From: Flavobacteriaceae bacterium PS02337
GTDB taxonomy: Bacteria > Bacteroidota > Bacteroidia > Flavobacteriales > Flavobacteriaceae
DNA length: 64,000 nucleotides
Direction: 5' to 3'
Assembly (NCBI GenBank): GCA_029959285.1
Contig: JASCOE010000009.1
Coordinates: forward strand, 186,001-250,000
Within the stretch, counting starts at the first letter, position 1, and each line of letters starts with the position of its first letter. The position numbers and the translations under genes are program-made. Shown in pieces: positions 43,591-54,666 of the stretch. The notes under the pieces were generated by a model. The model was not told the origin of the DNA, did not search any database, and saw nothing but the letters and a program-made list of their open reading frames with translations.

Positions 43591-44808
43591 ATGCTTAAAA
43601 ACGCTTTTACCAACTACATTAATAATTTTAGAGGTTTTTCGAGAGAAATTTGGATTCTTGCCATTGTCACTTTTATCAATCGTGCCGGAACAATGGTGCT
43701 TCCTTTTTTGTCTAAATATTTAAAAGAAGACCTTCATTTTACTTACAATCAAGTGGGATGGATTATGGTTGCGTTTGGTTTTGGTTCAATGTTAGGTTCT
43801 TGGCTGGGCGGAAAACTTTCGGATAAAATTGGTTTCTATAAAATCATGGTTTTCAGTTTATTTACTAGCGGAGTTTCTCTATTTTTTGTTCAATATATTA
43901 CCACTTTTTGGTCGCTTTGTATTGCCATGTTTTTATTAATGACCATTGCAGATATGTTTAGACCAGCCATGTTTGTGTCTTTGGGCGCTTATGCAAAACC
44001 AGAAAATAGAACTCGCGCCTTAACGCTTGTTCGTTTGGCTGTAAACTTAGGCTTTGCGGCAGGACCGGCTTTAGGCGGATTAATCATTATGGGAATGGGT
44101 TATTCTGGGCTTTTCTGGGTCGACGGATCTTCTTGTATTATCTCGATTTCTATTTTCGCTTTATTAGTAAAAGAAAAGAAAAAAGTTGTTCATGAAGATA
44201 AATTGGAAAGTGCCGCAGATGTAAAATCGGTTTTTCATGATAAAATTTTCTGGGTTTTCTTATTTGTAAGTTTTGTTACGGCTATGATTTTCTTCCAGCT
44301 TTTTACGACTCTACCTTTATATCATAATGAAAAATTTGGTTTAAGCGAATTCCAAACTGGACTTCTGATGACGCTAAACGGACTTTTGATTTTTGCTTTA
44401 GAAATGCCAACCGTTGGTTTTTTAGAAAAAAAAGGTTTTGCAAAAATCAGAATTATTATTTTAGGTTCTTTTGTTATGGCATCAAGTTTCTTTTTACTGC
44501 TTGTTAATTTCTGGGCTGGAATGCTAGTTGTCAGTATGATTTGCATTTCAATTGGGGAAGTTTTGACATTTCCATTTTCGAATGCTTTTGCGTTAAGCCG
44601 AGCGCCACGTGGACAAGAAGGTCGTTATATGGCGCTTTATACAATGAGTTTTAGTTTGGCTCATATTATAAGTTCTAAACTTGGCTTTGAAATTATTACC
44701 CGCTTAGGTTATCAAATTAACTGGTTATTTATGGCTTGTATCGGAGTTGTAGCTACTGGCTGTTGCATTTGGATTAAAAATGCTTTGGTTACTGAGAAAG
44801 CACAATAA
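43591..44808 (+). CDS. MFS transporter (drug:H+ antiporter-like)
   Basis: 405 aa with 12 predicted membrane segments. Motif A after helix 2 reads GSWLGGKLSDKIGFYKI (about 70-86). The central loop (about 200-225) is basic and charged (KEKKKVVHEDKLESAADVK). RAPRGQEGRYMALYTMSFSL (about 334-353) is typical of helix 10-11 loops in the MdtH/YfcJ-like group. The substrate is unknown. Confidence 0.88.
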   Translation: MLKNAFTNYINNFRGFSREIWILAIVTFINRAGTMVLPFLSKYLKEDLHFTYNQVGWIMVAFGFGSMLGSWLGGKLSDKIGFYKIMVFSLFTSGVSLFFVQYITTFWSLCIAMFLLMTIADMFRPAMFVSLGAYAKPENRTRALTLVRLAVNLGFAAGPALGGLIIMGMGYSGLFWVDGSSCIISISIFALLVKEKKKVVHEDKLESAADVKSVFHDKIFWVFLFVSFVTAMIFFQLFTTLPLYHNEKFGLSEFQTGLLMTLNGLLIFALEMPTVGFLEKKGFAKIRIIILGSFVMASSFFLLLVNFWAGMLVVSMICISIGEVLTFPFSNAFALSRAPRGQEGRYMALYTMSFSLAHIISSKLGFEIITRLGYQINWLFMACIGVVATGCCIWIKNALVTEKAQ

Positions 44809-44910
44809 AAACATTTAACTTCTTAAATTACTACTATTCAATTTATTACAATTAAATTTGAATAGCTTTTCTGTGTCTAAAATTCAAATCAAACTTAATT
44901 TTTAGTTAAA

Positions 44911-44946
44911 TAACTATTTTTATAGTTGCGTAACTAGAAAAATAGT
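44911..44946. promoter_or_regulatory. Palindromic operator, probably for BlaI
   Basis: A 36-bp palindrome: left half AACTATTTTTATAGTTGC, right half GTAACTAGAAAAATAGTT; 16 of 18 positions pair. It lies just upstream of the -7 box and ATG of a BlaI-family repressor gene, covering the -33 region, as expected for autoregulation. Confidence 0.75.
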
Positions 44947-44947
44947 T

Positions 44948-44955
44948 GTAGGTTT
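44948..44955 (+). promoter_or_regulatory. Putative -7 box of the blaI/M56 operon
   Basis: TAGGTTTG (TAnnTTTG), 1 bp after the palindrome and 18 bp before the ATG at 44974. Confidence 0.6.
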
Positions 44956-44973
44956 GAATTAAAATTAGAGAAG

Positions 44974-45342
44974 ATGCAGAAGTTAACAAACAAAGAAGAA
45001 GAAATTATGATGATTTTATGGAAGCTTAAAAAAGCTTTTGTAAAAGAAATTCAAGCAGAAATTACTGAAGATCAACCGCATTACAATACATTATCTACTA
45101 TCGTTCGTAATTTGGAAGAGAAAGGATATGTTGGGCATAATGCTTTTGGAAACACACATCAATACTTTCCGGTTGTAGCAATTGAAGATTACAGAAAAGG
45201 ATTTATGAAAACCGCGATTGATAATTACTTTAATAGTTCTTATAAAAGTATGGTTTCCTTTTTTGCAAAAGAAGAAAAAATCTCAGCCGAGGAATTGAGA
45301 GAAATCTTGTCAATGATCGAAAATAAAGACGAAAAAAAATAA
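44974..45342 (+). CDS. BlaI/MecI/CopY-family transcriptional repressor, copy 1
   Basis: 122 aa. Winged-helix DNA-binding domain (about 1-75): MQKLTNKEEEIMMILWKLKK, AFVKEIQAEI, YNTLSTIVRNLEEKGYVGH. The C-terminal dimerisation part (about 76-122) has DNYFNSSYKSMVSFFAKEEK. BlaI repressors bind palindromes as dimers and are inactivated by cleavage after a BlaR1-type peptidase senses a cell-wall signal. Followed after 7 bp by the M56 gene. Confidence 0.92.
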   Translation: MQKLTNKEEEIMMILWKLKKAFVKEIQAEITEDQPHYNTLSTIVRNLEEKGYVGHNAFGNTHQYFPVVAIEDYRKGFMKTAIDNYFNSSYKSMVSFFAKEEKISAEELREILSMIENKDEKK

Positions 45343-45349
45343 CTCTATT

Positions 45350-46990
45350 ATGGAAGCAGTTTTCATTTATATCGCCAAATCAACTTTTTTAATGATTTTG
45401 TTTTATTGCGCTTATTACTTTTTATTGCGTAAAGAAACTTTTTTCAACAGCAACAGATGGTTTTTATTGTCTGGTTTAATAGTTTCTGCGATTTTACCTT
45501 TTGTTACTTATACAAAGGTGATTTGGACTGAAGCTGCTCCTACTCTAGGTAATTTTCAAACTAATTTAACTTTAGTAGAAAAACAAAATACCGAATTTGA
45601 CTGGAATCAAGTCATTTTGGGAATTTACGGGCTAGGTTTTCTGGTTTTCATTATAAAATTAGCCATAGATTTTTACAGTTTAAATACTATAATAAAAGGT
45701 AAAAAAGTACAACAGCAAGCCGATTTTAAATTTATTGATATTAATGAAAATATTGCGCCTTTCTCCTATTTCGAATATATCGTTTACAACTCATCACTGT
45801 ACACGGCTTCGGAATTAGAAAATATTATTGAGCATGAAAAAGTGCACAGTGACCAAAATCATACTGTAGACGTTTTGATTTCTAGATTTTTCAGTATTAT
45901 TTTTTGGTTCAATCCGATTGTATGGTTTTATAAAAAAGCAATCACTCAAAATCTTGAATTTATTGCTGATAGCGAAGCTGCCAAAAAACTTTTAGACAAA
46001 AAAGCATATCAATACACGCTTTTAAAAATAACAACACACGAAAATTGTGTTGCCATCACCAATCATTTTTATCAATCATTAATCAAAAAACGAATCGTTA
46101 TGTTAAACACAAATCAATCAAAAAAGAGAAATTCTTGGAAGTATTATGTTGTAATTCCAGCACTTGCCGCTTTTGTATTGTTATTTCAAATTGAAGTAAT
46201 CGCAAAAGAAAAACCACAAAATGGAAAAGAAATTTCGAGTGAAGAACAGCCAGTAGATATTTATAAAATTAAAAAAACTACGACTGATGCTGAATTAAAA
46301 GAAATGAAAGAAAAATTAAAATCAGTTCACAACATTGATTTTAAAGCTTCCGAAATTAAACGAAATTCAGAAAATCTTTTAACTGCAATTAGAATTGATG
46401 TTAAAAGTGGTAATGAAGAATCAAAATCTATTCAAGATGCTGGAAACAATACCATAAAAGATTTTGGTATCGCTGTTTTAACAGACGAAAATGGCAAAAA
46501 AGTAGTTGGTATTATGGCGGGAGAAAGCAACCCTAAAGTTGGAGTTAGCAAGGGAATTTCAAAAGATTCTAATAAATCTGCTAACGCTAAAGTTACTGGA
46601 AAAGCAGAAATCATAAACAATCAAAATACTGATACTCAAACCAACAATAATGTTAAAACTACTTATTCTTTTACAACTACAAAAACAGATACTCAAACTA
46701 ACACGAATATAAATGATGTTGTAACAATAAATAGCAATAATAATGTAGTTACTAAAGTAACAACAGACGGAGGCTCAACAATTGCTATTTCTAATTCTGC
46801 AAAAACTAAAACTAAATTAGATAATCAATTAATAGTTGTTGATGGTCAAGAAATGCCAAGTAATTTTGACGCTGAAACTATAAATTCTAAAATTATTGAA
46901 TCTATAAGTATTTTTAAAGGCGTTGAAGCAGTAGCTCGATACGGTGATAAAGGGAAACATGGGGTAATTGAAATTGAAACCAAAAAATAG
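45350..46990 (+). CDS. M56 (BlaR1-type) metallopeptidase with a TonB-plug-like C-terminal domain, copy 1
   Basis: 546 aa. Membrane helices at about 3-22, 36-53 and 85-105, then the zinc peptidase domain with HEKVH (162-166; the HExxH pattern) and NLEFIADSEA (third-ligand Glu region, about 202-211). A further helix at about 265-282 (YYVVIPALAAFVLLFQIEV) leads to a periplasmic part of 260 residues. Its end, LIVVDGQEMPSNFDAETI to ISIFKGVEAVARYGDKGKHG and VIEIETKK, matches the plug domain pattern of SusC/TonB receptors. It has no penicillin-binding sensor domain, so the inducer is not a simple beta-lactam readout. Confidence 0.88.
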   Translation: MEAVFIYIAKSTFLMILFYCAYYFLLRKETFFNSNRWFLLSGLIVSAILPFVTYTKVIWTEAAPTLGNFQTNLTLVEKQNTEFDWNQVILGIYGLGFLVFIIKLAIDFYSLNTIIKGKKVQQQADFKFIDINENIAPFSYFEYIVYNSSLYTASELENIIEHEKVHSDQNHTVDVLISRFFSIIFWFNPIVWFYKKAITQNLEFIADSEAAKKLLDKKAYQYTLLKITTHENCVAITNHFYQSLIKKRIVMLNTNQSKKRNSWKYYVVIPALAAFVLLFQIEVIAKEKPQNGKEISSEEQPVDIYKIKKTTTDAELKEMKEKLKSVHNIDFKASEIKRNSENLLTAIRIDVKSGNEESKSIQDAGNNTIKDFGIAVLTDENGKKVVGIMAGESNPKVGVSKGISKDSNKSANAKVTGKAEIINNQNTDTQTNNNVKTTYSFTTTKTDTQTNTNINDVVTINSNNNVVTKVTTDGGSTIAISNSAKTKTKLDNQLIVVDGQEMPSNFDAETINSKIIESISIFKGVEAVARYGDKGKHGVIEIETKK

Positions 46991-47026
46991 TTTTTTCATC
47001 AATCATTAATCAAAAAACGAATCACT

Positions 47027-47851
47027 ATGTTAAACACAAATCAATCAAAAAAGAGAAATTCTTGGGAGTATTATGCTGTAGTTACAGTAATTGCAACTTT
47101 TGTTTTATTTCTATTTCAAATGGAAGTAATTGCAAAAGAAAGATCGCAAATTGTAAATGAAAACGAATCAAATATTAAATCTATTGATGTTTACAAAATT
47201 CGCAAAAACACTACTGATACAGAATTGAGTGAAATCAAAACTAAATTGCAAAAAAATCATAATGTAAAATTTGAAACATCTGATATTAAAAGAAATACTT
47301 CGAACCAATTAACATCAATTATAGTTGATATTAAAAAAGGAAAACAGCGAGCAAAATCTATTCAAAATTCTGATAATCAAACCATAAATGAATTTGGAGT
47401 AATTGTTATCACGTATAATAATGGCGATAAAAAAATAGGAATTCAAACTATAGACGAATCTCAAGGTAAAAATCCAAAAGCTGCAATTAGTACAAAATTA
47501 AATACAGAAGGCAATGTTAACACTTATTCTATTACTAGTACAAAAACTGATACTGATACTAATTCAAATGTTACCAGTATTGTTACGATAAACAACGATA
47601 AAGATGCTGCTACAACAGTAACTACTGACGGAGGTTCAAAAATTGCAATTTCAAATACTGCAAAAACTAAAACTAAGCCTGGAAATCAGTTAATTATTGT
47701 TGACGGAGAAGAAATGCCAAGTAATTTTGATTATGAAAGCATAAACGCAAAAGATATTGAATCTGTTAGTATTTTTAAAGGAAAAGAAGCCATTGCAAAA
47801 TATGGTGATAAAGGTACAAATGGCGTAATTGAAATCGAAACTCGTAAATAA
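47027..47851 (+). CDS. Truncated paralogue of the M56 sensor: membrane helix plus plug-like domain only
   Basis: 274 aa. It starts MLNTNQSKKRNSWEYYAVVT, almost identical to residues about 252-271 of the preceding gene, and keeps the last membrane helix (about 17-36) and the periplasmic plug-like domain (LIIVDGEEMPSNFDYESINA, VSIFKGKEAIAKYGDKGTNG). The three N-terminal helices and HEKVH peptidase are absent. DNA homology to the parent begins abruptly near 46998, which points to a partial tandem duplication. The frame is intact, so it may be expressed from the operon; it could also be a decaying copy. Confidence 0.75.
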   Translation: MLNTNQSKKRNSWEYYAVVTVIATFVLFLFQMEVIAKERSQIVNENESNIKSIDVYKIRKNTTDTELSEIKTKLQKNHNVKFETSDIKRNTSNQLTSIIVDIKKGKQRAKSIQNSDNQTINEFGVIVITYNNGDKKIGIQTIDESQGKNPKAAISTKLNTEGNVNTYSITSTKTDTDTNSNVTSIVTINNDKDAATTVTTDGGSKIAISNTAKTKTKPGNQLIIVDGEEMPSNFDYESINAKDIESVSIFKGKEAIAKYGDKGTNGVIEIETRK

Positions 47852-47873
47852 ACGATTTAAATAAAAAAACAAA

Positions 47874-48242
47874 ATGCAAAAACTAACCAATAAAGAAGAA
47901 GAAATCATGCATATTTTATGGAAGCTGAAAAAGGCTTTTGTAAAAGAAATTCAAGCAGAGATTTTAGAAGATCAGCCGCATTACAATACTTTGTCGACCA
48001 TTGTTCGTAATCTGGAAGAAAAAGGTTATGTGGCGCACAACGCTTTTGGAAACACGCATCAATATTATCCGATTGTGAGTATCGAAGATTATCGCACAGG
48101 TTTTATGAGTACTGCAATAGATAATTATTTTAATAGTTCTTACAAAAGCATGGTTTCATTTTTCGCTAAAGAAGAAAAAATCTCGGCAGACGAATTACGT
48201 GAAATCTTATATATGATCGAAAATCCAAAAGAAGGTAAATAA
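47874..48242 (+). CDS. BlaI/MecI/CopY-family transcriptional repressor, copy 2
   Basis: 122 aa, nearly identical to the copy at 44974-45342 (for example MQKLTNKEEEIMHILWKLKK, NTLSTIVRNLEEKGYVAHNA, NSSYKSMVSFFAKEEK). No operator palindrome like 44911-44946 is present in the 22-bp gap upstream, so it is likely read through from the first promoter. 7 bp before the second M56 gene, the same spacing as in copy 1. Confidence 0.92.
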   Translation: MQKLTNKEEEIMHILWKLKKAFVKEIQAEILEDQPHYNTLSTIVRNLEEKGYVAHNAFGNTHQYYPIVSIEDYRTGFMSTAIDNYFNSSYKSMVSFFAKEEKISADELREILYMIENPKEGK

Positions 48243-48249
48243 TTTTAGT

Positions 48250-50103
48250 ATGGAAGCACTTTTCATTTTTATTTTAAAATCAAGCGGACTAATAGCAACT
48301 TTTTATTTTGCTTACATTTTTTTACTTCGCAAAGAAACTTTCTTCAACAGCAGCCGTTGGTTTTTACTTGCGGGATTAATAACTTCAGTTGTATTGCCAT
48401 TTGTGGTGTATACAAAAGTAATTTTGGTTGAAGCGCCGCCAACGCCAGTTTTAATTCACTCCGTTGAATCGAATGCAGAAAATATTCCAACTTCAAATCA
48501 CGATGTTGTTGCGTATCAACCTCAATACACATCAAATAATGCAACTATTGTTGAAGAGAAAAATATTGAAATTAATTGGACATTAGTTTTAGTTGCTGTT
48601 TATGGAATTGGTTTCTTGGCATTTCTGATCAAATTTGCAATTGATTTTTATAGTTTGAATTCTGTTTTAAAAGGAAAAAAAATAGAACAGCAAGAAGATT
48701 TTAAATTTATTGATGTGAATGAAAACATTGCTCCTTTCTCTTATTTTGACTACATCGTATATAATTCATCACTATATACTGCGGCAGAATTAGAGAATAT
48801 ATTAGAACATGAAAAAGTTCACAGCGATCAAAATCATACTGTTGATGTTCTGATTTCGAGAATCTTTTGTATTCTATTTTGGTTCAACCCAATTGTGTGG
48901 CTTTACAAAAAAGCAATTTTACAAAATCTTGAATTTATTGCAGATCGTGAAGCTTCCAAAAAAATTGCCGACAAAAAAGCGTATCAGTATACACTCTTAA
49001 AAATTACAACGCATGAAACTTGCGTTGCCATCACCAATCATTTTTATCAATCATTAATCAAAAAACGAATTGTCATGTTAAACAAAAATCAATCAAACAA
49101 AAGAAATTACTGGAAATATTCTGCCGTAATTCCTGCTCTTGGCGCTTTTGTTCTTCTATTTCAAATAGAAACAATTGCTCAGGAAAAGAAACAAGATGAA
49201 GTTGCAATTGCTGCAAAAGATAGTATTAAAGATACTGATGAAACTATCAAAATAACTAAAAACACTAGTGAAAAAGAGTTAAATGAGCTTCCTGGAAAAT
49301 TAAAAGCTAGTCATAATCTTGATGTAGAAATTTCAGACGTAAAGAGAAATAGCAAAGAAGAATTAACAGCGATTCAAATCAAAGTAAAATCGGATTCTGG
49401 CAAAAAACAAACTGTCAAAATTGACGGAAGTGAAGCCATAAAAGATTGCGAACTTGCTATAGGAACTGACGAAAACGGATCAAAAGCGATTGTAATTACT
49501 ACAGACAAAAACTTTAAATCTCCAATGGTAATTAGAAATGAAAGAGTTGTTGTTCGTAACTACGGAGATTCAGACGTAACGCCTCCTACTCCGCCAACGC
49601 CGCCAGCTTTTCCTTCAGGACCAATGCCTCCGGCTCCAACTGTTGATATGTCAAAAATGCCAAAACCACCTTTACCTCCAAAAAATCCAAAAGATAAAGT
49701 TGCTATGAGCAAATTTGAAAAAGAGATGGATGAATTTGAGAAAAAAATGGAAGCATTTGAACCGAATATGTCTGCTTATGAAAAACAAGTTGAATTGGTA
49801 ATGTCTCAAAGAGAAGCTATTTATGAGAAAGAAATGGCTAAATATGAAATTGCGATGGAAAAATTCAATGAGAAAATGGAAAAATTTAATTATGATTTCA
49901 AATTCAAATTTGGAGATGATTCTCAAGAATATCAAAACACCATGAAGCAATACGAGCAAGATATGAAACAATATGAGCTTGATATGAAGCAACATGCAAA
50001 AGATATGAAACAACATGCTAAAGACATGAAGCAGCATGAGAAAGATATGAAACAGCATGAAAAAGACATGAAGGAAATGGAAAGACAAAACAAAAAAGCT
50101 TAA
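48250..50103 (+). CDS. M56 (BlaR1-type) metallopeptidase with Pro-rich and heptad-repeat tail, copy 2
   Basis: 617 aa. Peptidase half as in copy 1: helices at about 3-22, 36-55, 110-132; HEKVH at 187-191; NLEFIADREAS; last helix about 295-312. An extra loop of about 25 residues lies at 66-105. The periplasmic half differs: a domain homologous to copy 1 up to about 430, then a Pro-rich stretch (PPTPPTPPAFPSGPMPPAP, about 441-459) and a charged helix ending in seven heptads of MKQxxxD type. The plug-like end is gone. Same gene order and spacing as copy 1. Confidence 0.88.
   Translation: MEALFIFILKSSGLIATFYFAYIFLLRKETFFNSSRWFLLAGLITSVVLPFVVYTKVILVEAPPTPVLIHSVESNAENIPTSNHDVVAYQPQYTSNNATIVEEKNIEINWTLVLVAVYGIGFLAFLIKFAIDFYSLNSVLKGKKIEQQEDFKFIDVNENIAPFSYFDYIVYNSSLYTAAELENILEHEKVHSDQNHTVDVLISRIFCILFWFNPIVWLYKKAILQNLEFIADREASKKIADKKAYQYTLLKITTHETCVAITNHFYQSLIKKRIVMLNKNQSNKRNYWKYSAVIPALGAFVLLFQIETIAQEKKQDEVAIAAKDSIKDTDETIKITKNTSEKELNELPGKLKASHNLDVEISDVKRNSKEELTAIQIKVKSDSGKKQTVKIDGSEAIKDCELAIGTDENGSKAIVITTDKNFKSPMVIRNERVVVRNYGDSDVTPPTPPTPPAFPSGPMPPAPTVDMSKMPKPPLPPKNPKDKVAMSKFEKEMDEFEKKMEAFEPNMSAYEKQVELVMSQREAIYEKEMAKYEIAMEKFNEKMEKFNYDFKFKFGDDSQEYQNTMKQYEQDMKQYELDMKQHAKDMKQHAKDMKQHEKDMKQHEKDMKEMERQNKKA
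49942..50088 (+). repeat. Seven 21-bp tandem coding repeats (MKQxxxD heptads)
   Basis: In-frame units encode MKQYEQD, MKQYELD, MKQHAKD, MKQHAKD, MKQHEKD, MKQHEKD and MKEMERQ. The seven-residue period fits a long charged helix or coiled coil, and the array could vary in copy number. Confidence 0.85.
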
Positions 50104-50128
50104 TTATACTTTATTCTATATTTTAAAA

Positions 50129-50156
50129 ACCAGTGTTTATGATGCTGGTTTTTTTA
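50129..50156 (+). terminator. Terminator after the second M56 gene
   Basis: AACCAG, loop of about 11, CTGGTT followed by T tract (stem AACCAG(T)/(G)CTGGTT). 25 bp after the stop at 50103. Confidence 0.75.
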
Positions 50157-50191: not shown

Positions 50192-51625
50192 ATGAAAAAG
50201 AAAATTTTACTTCTGTTTTTGGCTTTTCAATTTTCACTTTTTGCACAAAAAAATACAATCGAAAAAAGTGTCTTTATTTCAATGGATAAAACAGCTTCTA
50301 TTTTAATGCAAAAATCGAAAGCAAATTCTATTTCAATTGGAGTTGTTCAAAACGGAAAAACATACACGAGGCATTACGGAGAAATAGATAAAGGAAAAGA
50401 AAACATTGCCAATAACAATACGGTTTTTGAAGTTGCTTCTATTACTAAATTATTTACCGGTTTACTTGCGGCGCAAGCAGTTTTAGAAGGAAAATTAAAT
50501 CCTGACGATGACATTCGAAAATACATTAAAGGAAATTATCCTAATTTAGAATATATCGGAACTCCAATTACGATTAAAGATTTAGTTTCCTTTAGAACTG
50601 GTTTTAATAAAGACCTTCCAGATACATCAGAATTACGTAAAAAACCTAACGATAGCATTTATCTAGCTTTTAAAAGAATGGATGAAACATACAATCGCGA
50701 AAAATTCTTTGAAGATCTTAAAACCATAAAATTAGATACTTTACCTGGAACTAAATTTAAATATAGCAACGGAAGTCTTAATCTGACGGCTCATATTATA
50801 GAAAATGTCTATCAAAAAAGTTATGAAACGCTTCTGAAAGAAAATATTTTTTCTAAACTAGAAATGACTTCAACTGGAATAAACTTAAAATCAAATATTA
50901 TAGTTGCAAATGGTTATAATCTAAAAGGTGTTTTAATGCCAAGTATTTCAGATAATCTTTGGGGTGCAGCTGGAAGTTTAAAATCTACTTTAGGTGACTT
51001 GACTAAATTCATTAATTATGAATTAAATACAAAAGACAAAATTGTTCAAGAATCACAACGAAATCTTCTGAATTGTACAACAACTTGGAATGGATATTTC
51101 TGGGATTATATTCAAGTTGATGAAAATGGAAAAAACTGCTGGAAACATGGCGGAGCTTTCGGAACTCAAAATATGCTAATTGTTTATCCTGAGCGACAAT
51201 TAGGACTTTCTATTATTGTAAATATTAGCGATGAAAATACGGGAAATGCTTTAGGAGAAGCGATCATTAAACTTTCAAATGATCTTTTGTCCGATAACAA
51301 CAAACAATCGGGCATTTACGGATACAAAATAATTAATGATAATGTTGTCTTTACTTATATTCACGATAAATCTTTGAATTCTGATTTGGTAAAAAGTGTT
51401 TCTATTGCAGGTTCGTTTGACAATTGGAATCCGAATGATAAAAATTTTCAAATGATTCAAAAAAATAAAAACACCTTCGAATTAACTGTTCCTAAATCAC
51501 AATTTGAAAAGAGCAAAACACATTTATTTAAGTTTGTCATAAACAAAACTGGCTGGATTGAAGCTCCTAAAAATGTCATAAATAGACAAACAGAAGGTGA
51601 TGAAAATTTGATTCTGAAAATCTAA
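50192..51625 (+). CDS. Exported beta-lactamase-fold serine hydrolase with a C-terminal CBM48-like domain
   Basis: 477 aa. Signal peptide about 1-18 (ILLLFLAFQFSLFAQ). The hydrolase domain (about 30-370) has SxxK as SITK in EVASITKLFTGLLAA (about 87), YxN as YSNGS (about 190), and HGG (about 327) in place of KTG: class C/DD-peptidase-like. The C-terminal domain (about 385-477; VSIAGSFDNWNPNDKNFQMI, FKFVINKTGWIEAP) resembles the AMPK-type glycogen-binding/E-set domain. It sits right behind two BlaI/M56 modules, so it may be regulated by, or respond to, the same envelope signal; a terminator separates them. Confidence 0.85.
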   Translation: MKKKILLLFLAFQFSLFAQKNTIEKSVFISMDKTASILMQKSKANSISIGVVQNGKTYTRHYGEIDKGKENIANNNTVFEVASITKLFTGLLAAQAVLEGKLNPDDDIRKYIKGNYPNLEYIGTPITIKDLVSFRTGFNKDLPDTSELRKKPNDSIYLAFKRMDETYNREKFFEDLKTIKLDTLPGTKFKYSNGSLNLTAHIIENVYQKSYETLLKENIFSKLEMTSTGINLKSNIIVANGYNLKGVLMPSISDNLWGAAGSLKSTLGDLTKFINYELNTKDKIVQESQRNLLNCTTTWNGYFWDYIQVDENGKNCWKHGGAFGTQNMLIVYPERQLGLSIIVNISDENTGNALGEAIIKLSNDLLSDNNKQSGIYGYKIINDNVVFTYIHDKSLNSDLVKSVSIAGSFDNWNPNDKNFQMIQKNKNTFELTVPKSQFEKSKTHLFKFVINKTGWIEAPKNVINRQTEGDENLILKI

Positions 51626-53572: not shown

Positions 53573-54103
53573 ATGAAAAATCTACCTCAAAAAGTCAGAA
53601 GTAAAAAACTAAGTTCTAGAGTTGATTTAACCGCGATGGTTAGTGTTTCTTTTTTGCTGATTATCTTTTTTATGGTTGTTGGCGAATTATCGAAACAAAA
53701 AATAATGATAAACGAAGTACCAAGTTGCATTGATGAACCTATGTTTACGGGTTGTTACATGCCTGACGAAAGTCGTACTGTTACTATACTTTTAGGAGAT
53801 AATAATAAATTAGTTACTTATTCCGGATTATTGTTTGTACCGGTTCAAGTTCCTAGAGAAGTGAAATATGGCAAAGATGGGATTAGAAAAGAATTACTAG
53901 AAAGAAATAAAAAAGTTCTCGAATATTCTGCAAATAAGGGAAAACCGGGAAATGGAATTAATGTTATCATTAAACCCAGCGAAAAATGTAATTTTAAAAA
54001 TCTAGTAGATATTTTAGATGAAATGGAAATTACTCAGATTAGTAGTTATTCAATTGTTAATGTATTTACACCTGAAGAATCTAAATTACTAGCTTCTAAT
54101 TAA
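53573..54103 (+). CDS. ExbD/TolR-like protein, copy 1, lacking the usual proton-pathway Asp
   Basis: 176 aa. Basic start (MKNLPQKVRSKKLSSR), then one membrane helix (VDLTAMVSVSFLLIIFFMVV, about 17-36) and a periplasmic domain (about 40-176; EVKYGKDGIRKELLERNKKV, INVIIKPSEKCNFKNLVDIL). In ExbD the helix reads TPxxDVxLVLLIIFM with the essential Asp; here the aligned position is Ser (TAMVSVSFLLIIFFM). No exbB gene is adjacent. It shares an identical first 41 residues with the next gene. Confidence 0.78.
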   Translation: MKNLPQKVRSKKLSSRVDLTAMVSVSFLLIIFFMVVGELSKQKIMINEVPSCIDEPMFTGCYMPDESRTVTILLGDNNKLVTYSGLLFVPVQVPREVKYGKDGIRKELLERNKKVLEYSANKGKPGNGINVIIKPSEKCNFKNLVDILDEMEITQISSYSIVNVFTPEESKLLASN

Positions 54104-54129: not shown

Positions 54130-54666
54130 ATGAAAAATCTACCTCAAAAAGTCAGAAGTAAAAAACTAAGTTCAAGAGTCGATTTAACCGCTATGGTGAG
54201 CGTTTCTTTTTTATTGATTATATTTTTTATGGTTGTTGGTGAATTGTCTAAACCGAAAATCATGGATTTAAATTTGCCTGATAACGATTGGACTTGCGGA
54301 GGAAGATCATATGGCTGTGGCAAAGGAATTGAAGAACGTTTAATTACGGTTATGCTTGATGAAAATGACAAAATAATAATGTATTCGGGATTGTATGATT
54401 ACCCACTAATTGCTCCAAAAAAAATTGAATTTGGAATTAATGGAATACGTAAAGAATTAAAACAAAGACAAAACAGAATATACTATTATTCAGCTTCAAT
54501 AGGAAAACCTAACCGAGGTGCAATTGTAATCATAAAACCTAGTGAAAAATCAAATTTCAAAAACCTTGTAGATATTTTAGATGAAATGGCAATTGCTAAA
54601 ATTGATACTTACACTATTGTAAATGAATTTTCGCCAGAAGAAACAAAATTATTAGCATTAAAATAA
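54130..54666 (+). CDS. ExbD/TolR-like protein, copy 2, lacking the usual proton-pathway Asp
   Basis: 178 aa, a tandem paralogue 26 bp downstream of copy 1. N terminus identical to copy 1 through GELSK, with the same Asp-to-Ser change in the helix. The periplasmic domains are similar at the end (IVIIKPSEKSNFKNLVDILD, about 138-157) but diverge in the first half (WTCGGRSYGCGKGIEERLIT; two Cys about 52 and 59). Recent duplication followed by divergence of the exposed part. Confidence 0.78.
   Translation: MKNLPQKVRSKKLSSRVDLTAMVSVSFLLIIFFMVVGELSKPKIMDLNLPDNDWTCGGRSYGCGKGIEERLITVMLDENDKIIMYSGLYDYPLIAPKKIEFGINGIRKELKQRQNRIYYYSASIGKPNRGAIVIIKPSEKSNFKNLVDILDEMAIAKIDTYTIVNEFSPEETKLLALK

Follow-up and report, generated by a model that had tools for sequence, protein, structure and literature searches.

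Can a bacterial cell read more than one envelope signal through a single genetic switch? The question is raised by a locus in Flavobacteriaceae bacterium PS02337 (assembly GCA_029959285.1), in which two modules, each pairing a BlaI-family repressor with an M56 membrane protease, stand in tandem at positions 44974..50103 of the window, the 64,000-nucleotide (nt) stretch of contig JASCOE010000009.1 (contig C56 of the 5.7-Mb genome) that was analyzed. BlaR1, the protease that these proteins resemble, is known as an antibiotic sensor. The reading favored here, at a probability of roughly 0.55, is a BlaR1/BlaI-type switch that was duplicated and now combines two inputs with one output. As its sensing parts have been rebuilt from new modules, the cell probably reads two envelope signals through one genetic switch.

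Repressors, proteases and the operator array

The operator and the two modules comprise the following features.

44903..44956, + strand: operator-promoter array, with dyads at 44903-44916 and 44923-44936, a half-site at 44943-44947 and a TAnnTTTG box at 44949-44956
44974..45342, + strand: BlaI1 repressor (PF03965, E 6.6e-30; MecI 1sd6, E 8e-9)
45350..46990, + strand: M56_1, with transmembrane helices, M56 metalloprotease, last transmembrane helix and periplasmic tail (PF05569, E 2.6e-14; BlaR1 8exs, E 0.0028; hydropathy)
47874..48242, + strand: BlaI2 repressor (PF03965, E 4.2e-30)
48250..50103, + strand: M56_2, with transmembrane and metalloprotease parts (PF05569, E 3.6e-13; Foldseek match to BlaR1 8exr)

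They belong to a run on the plus strand from 43591 that consists of a major facilitator superfamily (MFS) transporter gene, the operator array, blaI1, M56_1, a tail-only gene, blaI2, M56_2, a terminator-like stem and a PF00144 hydrolase gene. Successive genes from blaI1 to M56_2, five in all, are separated by 7, 36, 22 and 7 nt, the spacing between the tail-only gene and blaI2 being the one of only 22 nt. An earlier note on this DNA had described the tandem modules, with nearly identical repressors and conserved peptidase halves, and its coordinates and parts proved correct: both repressors match PF03965 and both peptidases PF05569 above the Pfam cut-offs, BlaI1 and BlaI2 are 89% identical (13 of 122 positions differ), and the peptidase halves of M56_1 and M56_2 are 76% identical. 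BlaI1 matches MecI and BlaI structures with E values from 8e-9 to 1e-6. The HExxH motif is kept in both M56 proteins of the window (by eye) and in every M56 protein compared. A model of M56_2 built from 44 sequences (mean predicted local distance difference test score [pLDDT] 66.8, predicted template modeling score 0.40) was aligned by Foldseek to the transmembrane-protease entry of Staphylococcus aureus BlaR1, 8exr, with a root mean square deviation of 2.9 A over 167 columns, and the M56 proteases are BlaR1-like. In hydropathy plots, the last transmembrane helix follows KKR-type positive residues; under the positive-inside rule, the tails should therefore face the periplasm.

The array consists of two TAGTT-N4-AACTA dyads at a 20-bp period plus a third half-site running into TAnnTTTG, a -7 box of the type found in Bacteroidota. 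Across the genome, the exact double array has a single occurrence; allowing up to three mismatches adds two other places, compared with 6 in the control. The composite site was present in exact form in 271 of 399 same-genus genomes, with a reversed control of 0 in every row (by eye), and with one mismatch allowed in 103 of 150 genomes, where a few rows had one control match. Two sets of loci from relatives were compared further. A first set of 60, in whose upstream regions the array was also examined, was chosen by us from 150 genomes (149 with a match), mostly for low E values and open frames that could accommodate an M56 protein; many of the weaker matches in that survey are, by frame length, TonB receptors. 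A second set of 79 was found with a plug-tail alignment among the best 80 of 205 relatives and thus favors tandem loci. In these 79 loci, exact dyads before BlaI1 numbered two in 74 cases and one in 5, and no exact dyad lay within 150 nt before BlaI2 in any of the 73 loci having BlaI2. With the array before BlaI1 and no dyad before BlaI2, both modules share one operator, in agreement with the earlier note. A wider regulon defined by single dyads was dropped, as the genome has 16 exact single dyads, including the two in the array, and the reversed control gave 46, which is no excess.

Sensor tails and the tail-only protein

The tails of the two proteases, and the tail-only protein encoded between the modules, are made up of the following parts.

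46238..46528, + strand: COMMON sensor domain of M56_1 (A3 profile, E 4.4e-30)
46820..46987, + strand: plug-like C-terminal piece of M56_1 (TIGR04056, residues 491-546; weaker Pfam match, residues 437-538)
46991..47026, + strand: relic of an HFYQSLIKKRI coding stretch (direct repeat D17; frame and flank comparison)
47027..47851, + strand: tail-only protein, with transmembrane helix, COMMON, N/T/S-rich linker and plug-like end and no peptidase (PF07715, 24.0 bits, cut-off 23.9); COMMON at 47165-47461, plug-like end at about 47681-47848
About 49228-49515, 49567-49690 and 49696-50097, + strand: COMMON, Pro-rich part and long helices of the M56_2 tail

COMMON is a domain of ~95 residues that directly follows the last membrane helix in M56_1, M56_2 and the tail-only protein. 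Within its own genome it is confined to this operon (profile search, E up to 0.1), and among 198 phylum-wide genomes it was found in 16, of which 9 share the genus, another 6 belong to different genera within the family and 1 shares the class. In the tail-only model it is predicted with a pLDDT of about 77-94. No consistent Pfam family was matched over 49 members (FimV_N in 5 of 49, at best 9e-4), and the top PDB match of the tail-only model had an E value of 0.044; given this weak match and the inconsistent families, COMMON is left unnamed. Its strand order looks cystatin-like.

By alignment to the tail-only protein, the tail of M56_1 runs from COMMON through a disordered linker to the plug-like end. 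In the tail-only model, the N/T/S-rich linker has a pLDDT mostly below 50, whereas the plug-like end of ~55 residues reaches 72-86 and forms only a short strand-helix-strand. M56_1 matches the plug family PF07715 with an E value of 8.4e-5 and 23.5 bits (cut-off 23.9) over profile positions 8-106 of 107, partly via the low-complexity linker, and the match of the tail-only protein spans positions 38-107. The tail-only protein also matches TIGR04057 with an E value of 6e-9, below the model cut-off, and a profile of the tails aligns to SusC/RagA PDB chains over ~70 positions with an E value of 3e-9. The C-terminal tail piece is, on these profile matches, truly related to SusC/RagA plugs. From the coverage of the plug profile and the span of the PDB alignment, at least the C-terminal half of a plug appears to be present, and a fuller but degenerate plug is possible. 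A Foldseek comparison of the plug-bearing model with SusC 8aa4 gave a weak match (E 0.67).

Like the plugs of SusC/RagA TonB-dependent receptors (PF07715, TIGR04056/57), the copy-1 tails have the C-terminal plug part and the SusC/RagA signature. Unlike those receptors, they have no beta-barrel, M56_1 and the tail-only protein both terminating at the plug signature; the plug is incomplete in its conserved part, the last ~55 residues of the copy-1 tail; no TonB box was seen by eye in the tail alignment; and the piece sits on an inner-membrane anchor. The earlier note had proposed that this tail may contact TonB-dependent transport or SusC-like receptors, a suggestion that finds no support in a partial plug that has neither barrel nor visible TonB box and is held to the inner membrane behind a disordered linker; given the true kinship of the piece to SusC/RagA plugs, it may nevertheless hold. 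Its distinction between the tails was borne out, as the tail of M56_2 is Pro-rich and then continues in long helices, with 21-nt repeats in the DNA. A 138-amino-acid (aa) open frame at 49672-50088 on the minus strand, antisense to the heptad repeat of M56_2, is most likely a mere shadow of the repeat.

In layout, the locus appears to be a BlaR1/BlaI system. Like staphylococcal BlaR1-BlaI and MecR1-MecI, it has BlaI-family repressors, M56 membrane proteases with HExxH and a C-terminal extracytoplasmic tail, and a promoter with a dyad operator; a neighboring gene encodes a serine hydrolase from the beta-lactamase superfamily. The sensor is where the likeness ends. Neither tail matched a penicillin-binding domain in Pfam or NCBIfam, as the earlier note had also held, and the M56 proteins scored 36.9 and 35.7 bits against NF000326 (cut-off 400). 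Without such a domain, the locus should not be called a beta-lactam sensor. In place of penicillin binding it has COMMON with the plug piece or helices, and it further differs in having two modules on one operator, a protease-less sensor copy and a Gram-negative periplasm. The mechanism of the staphylococcal systems follows a 2020 review (PMC7593790), which calls the switching of the M56 protease from outside unclear. Cryo-electron microscopy structures of BlaR1 have become available since that review, including the 8exr entry matched here.

The earlier note had mentioned neither the COMMON domain that the two tails share nor the hydrolase (50192-51625), the conserved upstream MFS gene or the tail-only protein, a transmembrane helix and sensor tail lacking the peptidase. 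The start of the tail-only protein is the Met of MLNTNQS, a motif found before the final membrane helix of M56_1; the 36-nt stretch ahead of this start resembles the HFYQSLIKKRI coding sequence, in frame with the M56_1 stop. The tail-only gene is a partial copy that became a gene, with 46991..47026 as the scar of a 3' partial duplication. Flavobacterium chungbukense has the same arrangement, with an in-frame gap of 42 nt. The tail-only gene of F. potami, which lies behind an out-of-frame gap of 83 nt and encodes a protein 50.6% identical to that of the window, may be a separate event. Elsewhere, one locus has a 79-residue frame resembling a tail-only remnant (L174), 8 of the 60 loci encode a separate COMMON protein of ~300 residues downstream of M56, and a genome from another genus of the family (G265) encodes a separate protein with COMMON and plug upstream of BlaI. 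These varied genes and positions suggest that a protease-less sensor copy probably arose more than once.

The tandem arrangement among relatives

At least two M56 genes were found in 26 of the 60 same-genus loci, and in 24 of these (L037-L058, L061 and L062) the tails follow the pattern of the window. The plug model (E <0.05) matched copy 1 in 24/24 and copy 2 in 0/24, and the COMMON model matched all 48 M56 proteins; both models were built from the tails of 23 of the 60 loci later searched, plus the window. The survey of tandem arrays that the earlier note had called for thus finds the two-tail arrangement conserved in many species. In the two loci outside the 24, one BlaI is combined with another set of tails: one BlaI is followed by three M56 proteins in L092 and by two in L093, with differing tails, so that several proteases accompany one repressor gene. 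Among the 79 loci, two or more M56 frames were found in 75, and 72 encode two M56 proteins of at least 450 residues. Tails in this set were labeled plug or helix type by simple text rules, which left at least one unclear label in 13 of the 79; the helix type never stood ahead of the plug type.

Single-M56 loci and composite tails bear on the origin of the two tails. The plug piece was matched at E <1e-6 in 7 of 34 such loci, and some single proteins combine the parts that are distributed between the two copies in the window, in the order COMMON-plug-helix (L079, L092_2 and L093_1) or COMMON-plug-COMMON-helix (L069). Such chains fit an ancestral composite tail that was parted out after duplication; a gain in copy 1 is a possible alternative. 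In the protease tree, 25 copy-1 proteins and 25 copy-2 proteins (including those of the window) and 3 single-copy proteins form a group of 53 rows with support of 100/97, within which 23 copy-1 rows form a well-supported set. Separate clades for the two copies were not recovered, since 8 label changes are required on the protease tree and 12 on the repressor tree, against a minimum of 2. This mixed placement suggests that gene conversion or more than one duplication event is possible.

Two loci depart from the usual layout in copy 1. In Flavobacterium bizetiae (L194, 4174-7849), an extra plug-tail M56 protein of 673 aa is inserted between BlaI1 and the usual copy 1, from which it appears that the array can grow. 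In Flavobacterium sp. LC2016-12 (L220, 6222-7840), copy 1 consists of overlapping peptidase and tail frames in different reading frames, which is either an error or a real split.

Candidate output and rival explanations

Three further features flank the modules.

43591..44808, + strand: MFS transporter, upstream neighbor (PF07690)
50125..50153, + strand: terminator-like stem between M56_2 and the hydrolase gene (terminator prediction)
50192..51625, + strand: PF00144 serine hydrolase with a weak CBM48-like C-terminus (PF00144, E 1.9e-46)

A homolog of the hydrolase was found in 45 of the 79 loci (phmmer with the window enzyme, E 1e-4); in 17 of them it follows M56_2 by 0-30 nt, and in 20 a related stem precedes it. 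The weaker homologs that were scanned all matched PF00144 (8/8, Pfam), several with a subthreshold TPR match. The related stem was identified with a text rule that does not detect the stem of the window itself; under this rule it follows M56_2 in 22 of the 45 hydrolase-bearing loci and in 4 of 33 that lack the enzyme. Terminator-like sites as a class were not above chance (3 found, 3.9 expected). A second exact composite site was present in 5 of the 271 genomes (by eye). Three single-module genomes (G033, G111 and G574) have it upstream of a PF00144 gene, whose likely start codon lies 57-76 nt past the first base of the site; these enzymes are 55-57% identical to one another, so the three cases may be one event. 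The second site of G477 belongs to a second BlaI-M56 locus, and in G572 (L320, 3111-6095), as a single case, a gene for an outer-membrane beta-barrel protein (PF14905, plus CarboxypepD_reg and a subthreshold match to Plug) begins 153 nt downstream of the first base of the site. A further genome (G123; L292, 5734-11967) has a one-mismatch composite operator before genes for four similar secreted proteins, which are GLPGLI-like and the first of which weakly matches Porph_ging PF09697, and an 886-aa protein with a CarboxypepD_reg-like start. From these associations we infer that the usual output is the operon itself plus the PF00144 hydrolase.

In the proposed mechanism, BlaI1 and BlaI2 would bind the same array as homo- or heterodimers, and COMMON together with its own end, the plug-like piece or the Pro-rich helices, would form the input part of each M56 protein. 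When either tail end met its signal, the protease would cut BlaI and the operon would turn on, yielding more sensor and, where present, the PF00144 hydrolase, in the window via read-through of the terminator-like stem. The tail-only protein, which has the same membrane helix without the peptidase, might tune M56_1 as a decoy or dimer partner.

Several points weigh against this reading. At the position aligned with the Asn-Phe pair that we take to be the cleavage site of staphylococcal BlaI/MecI, both BlaI1 and BlaI2 differ, with Ser-Phe. Copy 1 of L044 and L045 groups weakly among copy-2 rows in the protease tree, and the repressor tree, of 122 columns, fails to separate the copies. On the output side, second operator sites are rare (5/271), and two of the five do not concern hydrolases; the operator-borne hydrolases of G033, G111 and G574 are only 28-30% identical to that of the window; 34 of the 79 loci have no hydrolase, contig ends accounting for at most 2; and no operator dyad was found before the window hydrolase, which itself lies behind the terminator-like stem. 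The selection estimates come from one species pair, the window and F. chungbukense, with a synonymous divergence of 0.6-1.0. The Nei-Gojobori ratio of nonsynonymous to synonymous substitution rates (dN/dS) for this pair is 0.41 for the M56_1 tail, 0.06 for the M56_1 protease half, 0.11 for M56_2, 0.01 and 0.04 for the BlaI repressors, 0.10 for the hydrolase and 0.03 for the MFS transporter, so that the copy-1 tail evolves faster than its own protease and the repressors.

That fast tail can be read in another way. The modules may be redundant paralogs, an old tandem duplication kept for dosage whose loosely constrained tails drift without serving separate inputs, an explanation that we consider rather unlikely. 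The tail has the highest ratio of the genes compared, its matching linker is disordered in the tail-only model, and the 4 of the 79 loci that have a single BlaI with a single helix-type M56 may reflect loss of copy 1. Drift sits poorly, however, with the recurrence of both tail types, always in one order, across 24/24 tandem loci, with a plug-like end that is alignable across 26 tails and with a dN/dS of 0.21 for the tail-only gene. The duplicated switch with two inputs, which the earlier note had put forward as one repressor output with different input domains, is thus favored on comparative grounds by the conserved two-tail arrangement, the faster copy-1 tail and the single operator.

The kinship of the plug piece with SusC/RagA (E 3e-9 to PDB chains; TIGR04057 match of the tail-only protein) also suggests an envelope-assembly sensor, in which the plug end would mimic an unfolded or unplaced SusC/RagA protein and compete for its handler (a chaperone, the beta-barrel assembly machinery, TonB or SusD), so that the protease would fire when receptor traffic jams. 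The operator before the beta-barrel gene of G572 is in keeping with this, but it is the one such second site in 271 genomes, the plug is partial, no TonB box was seen and the Foldseek match to SusC is weak; the explanation is improbable. About as improbable is the more elaborate proposal of a BlaR1/BlaI machine turned into a stress sensor for outer-membrane receptors, with the plug as mimic, the helical tail for another property and the protease-less copy as threshold setter. If true, it would be a flavobacterial envelope stress pathway assembled from antibiotic-sensor parts, a role played in enterobacteria by sigma-E. A disguised beta-lactam resistance operon, directly sensing beta-lactams and inducing the PF00144 enzyme, would suit the adjoining BlaI, BlaR1-like protease and hydrolase but is very improbable, as neither tail matches a penicillin-binding domain, the hydrolase reaches just 103 bits with the NCBI equivalog for class C beta-lactamases (cut-off 415), its HGG (by eye) stands where AmpC has KTG, and the only solved chain that it matches at E 1e-20 or better is protein Flp.

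Under the reading of a duplicated two-input switch, a BlaR1-type switch has been re-tailed across much of the genus with a private domain, a nutrient-receptor fragment and periplasmic helices, and doubled in one group under a single operator. This would provide a naturally occurring series in which to study how signals from outside activate an M56 protease, as well as a concrete regulon for testing, consisting of the operon and the serine hydrolase. No paper on this operon was found among the matches listed in a literature search whose scope excluded most subscription papers and all bioRxiv preprints. In PMC5294843, a BlaI-family gene, not necessarily the counterpart of those in the window, is reported to be up-regulated in a Riemerella anatipestifer mutant with a changed lipopolysaccharide pattern, which fits envelope sensing. 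Four other papers were discarded as leads, PMC12578637 having matched through the catalog number M5625 and reference-list text and PMC10197871, PMC12724326 and PMC4026382 through the author name Blair.

A third BlaI-M56 pair in the same genome, at C52 (24.2 kb), likewise combines BlaI with an M56 protease; unlike the window, it is a single module whose M56 protein, of 408 aa, has no COMMON match and no plug seen by eye. PADLOC gave only weak matches of BlaI1 to CARF-type models at the locus, and a defense function was dropped. In 57 of the 60 loci, an MFS transporter gene is located no more than 2 kb ahead of BlaI. About 2 kb past the hydrolase, two adjacent open reading frames with near-identical N-termini (53573-54103 and 54130-54666, + strand) were observed, the first of which matches ExbD/TolR PF02472 with an E value of 4.3e-11.

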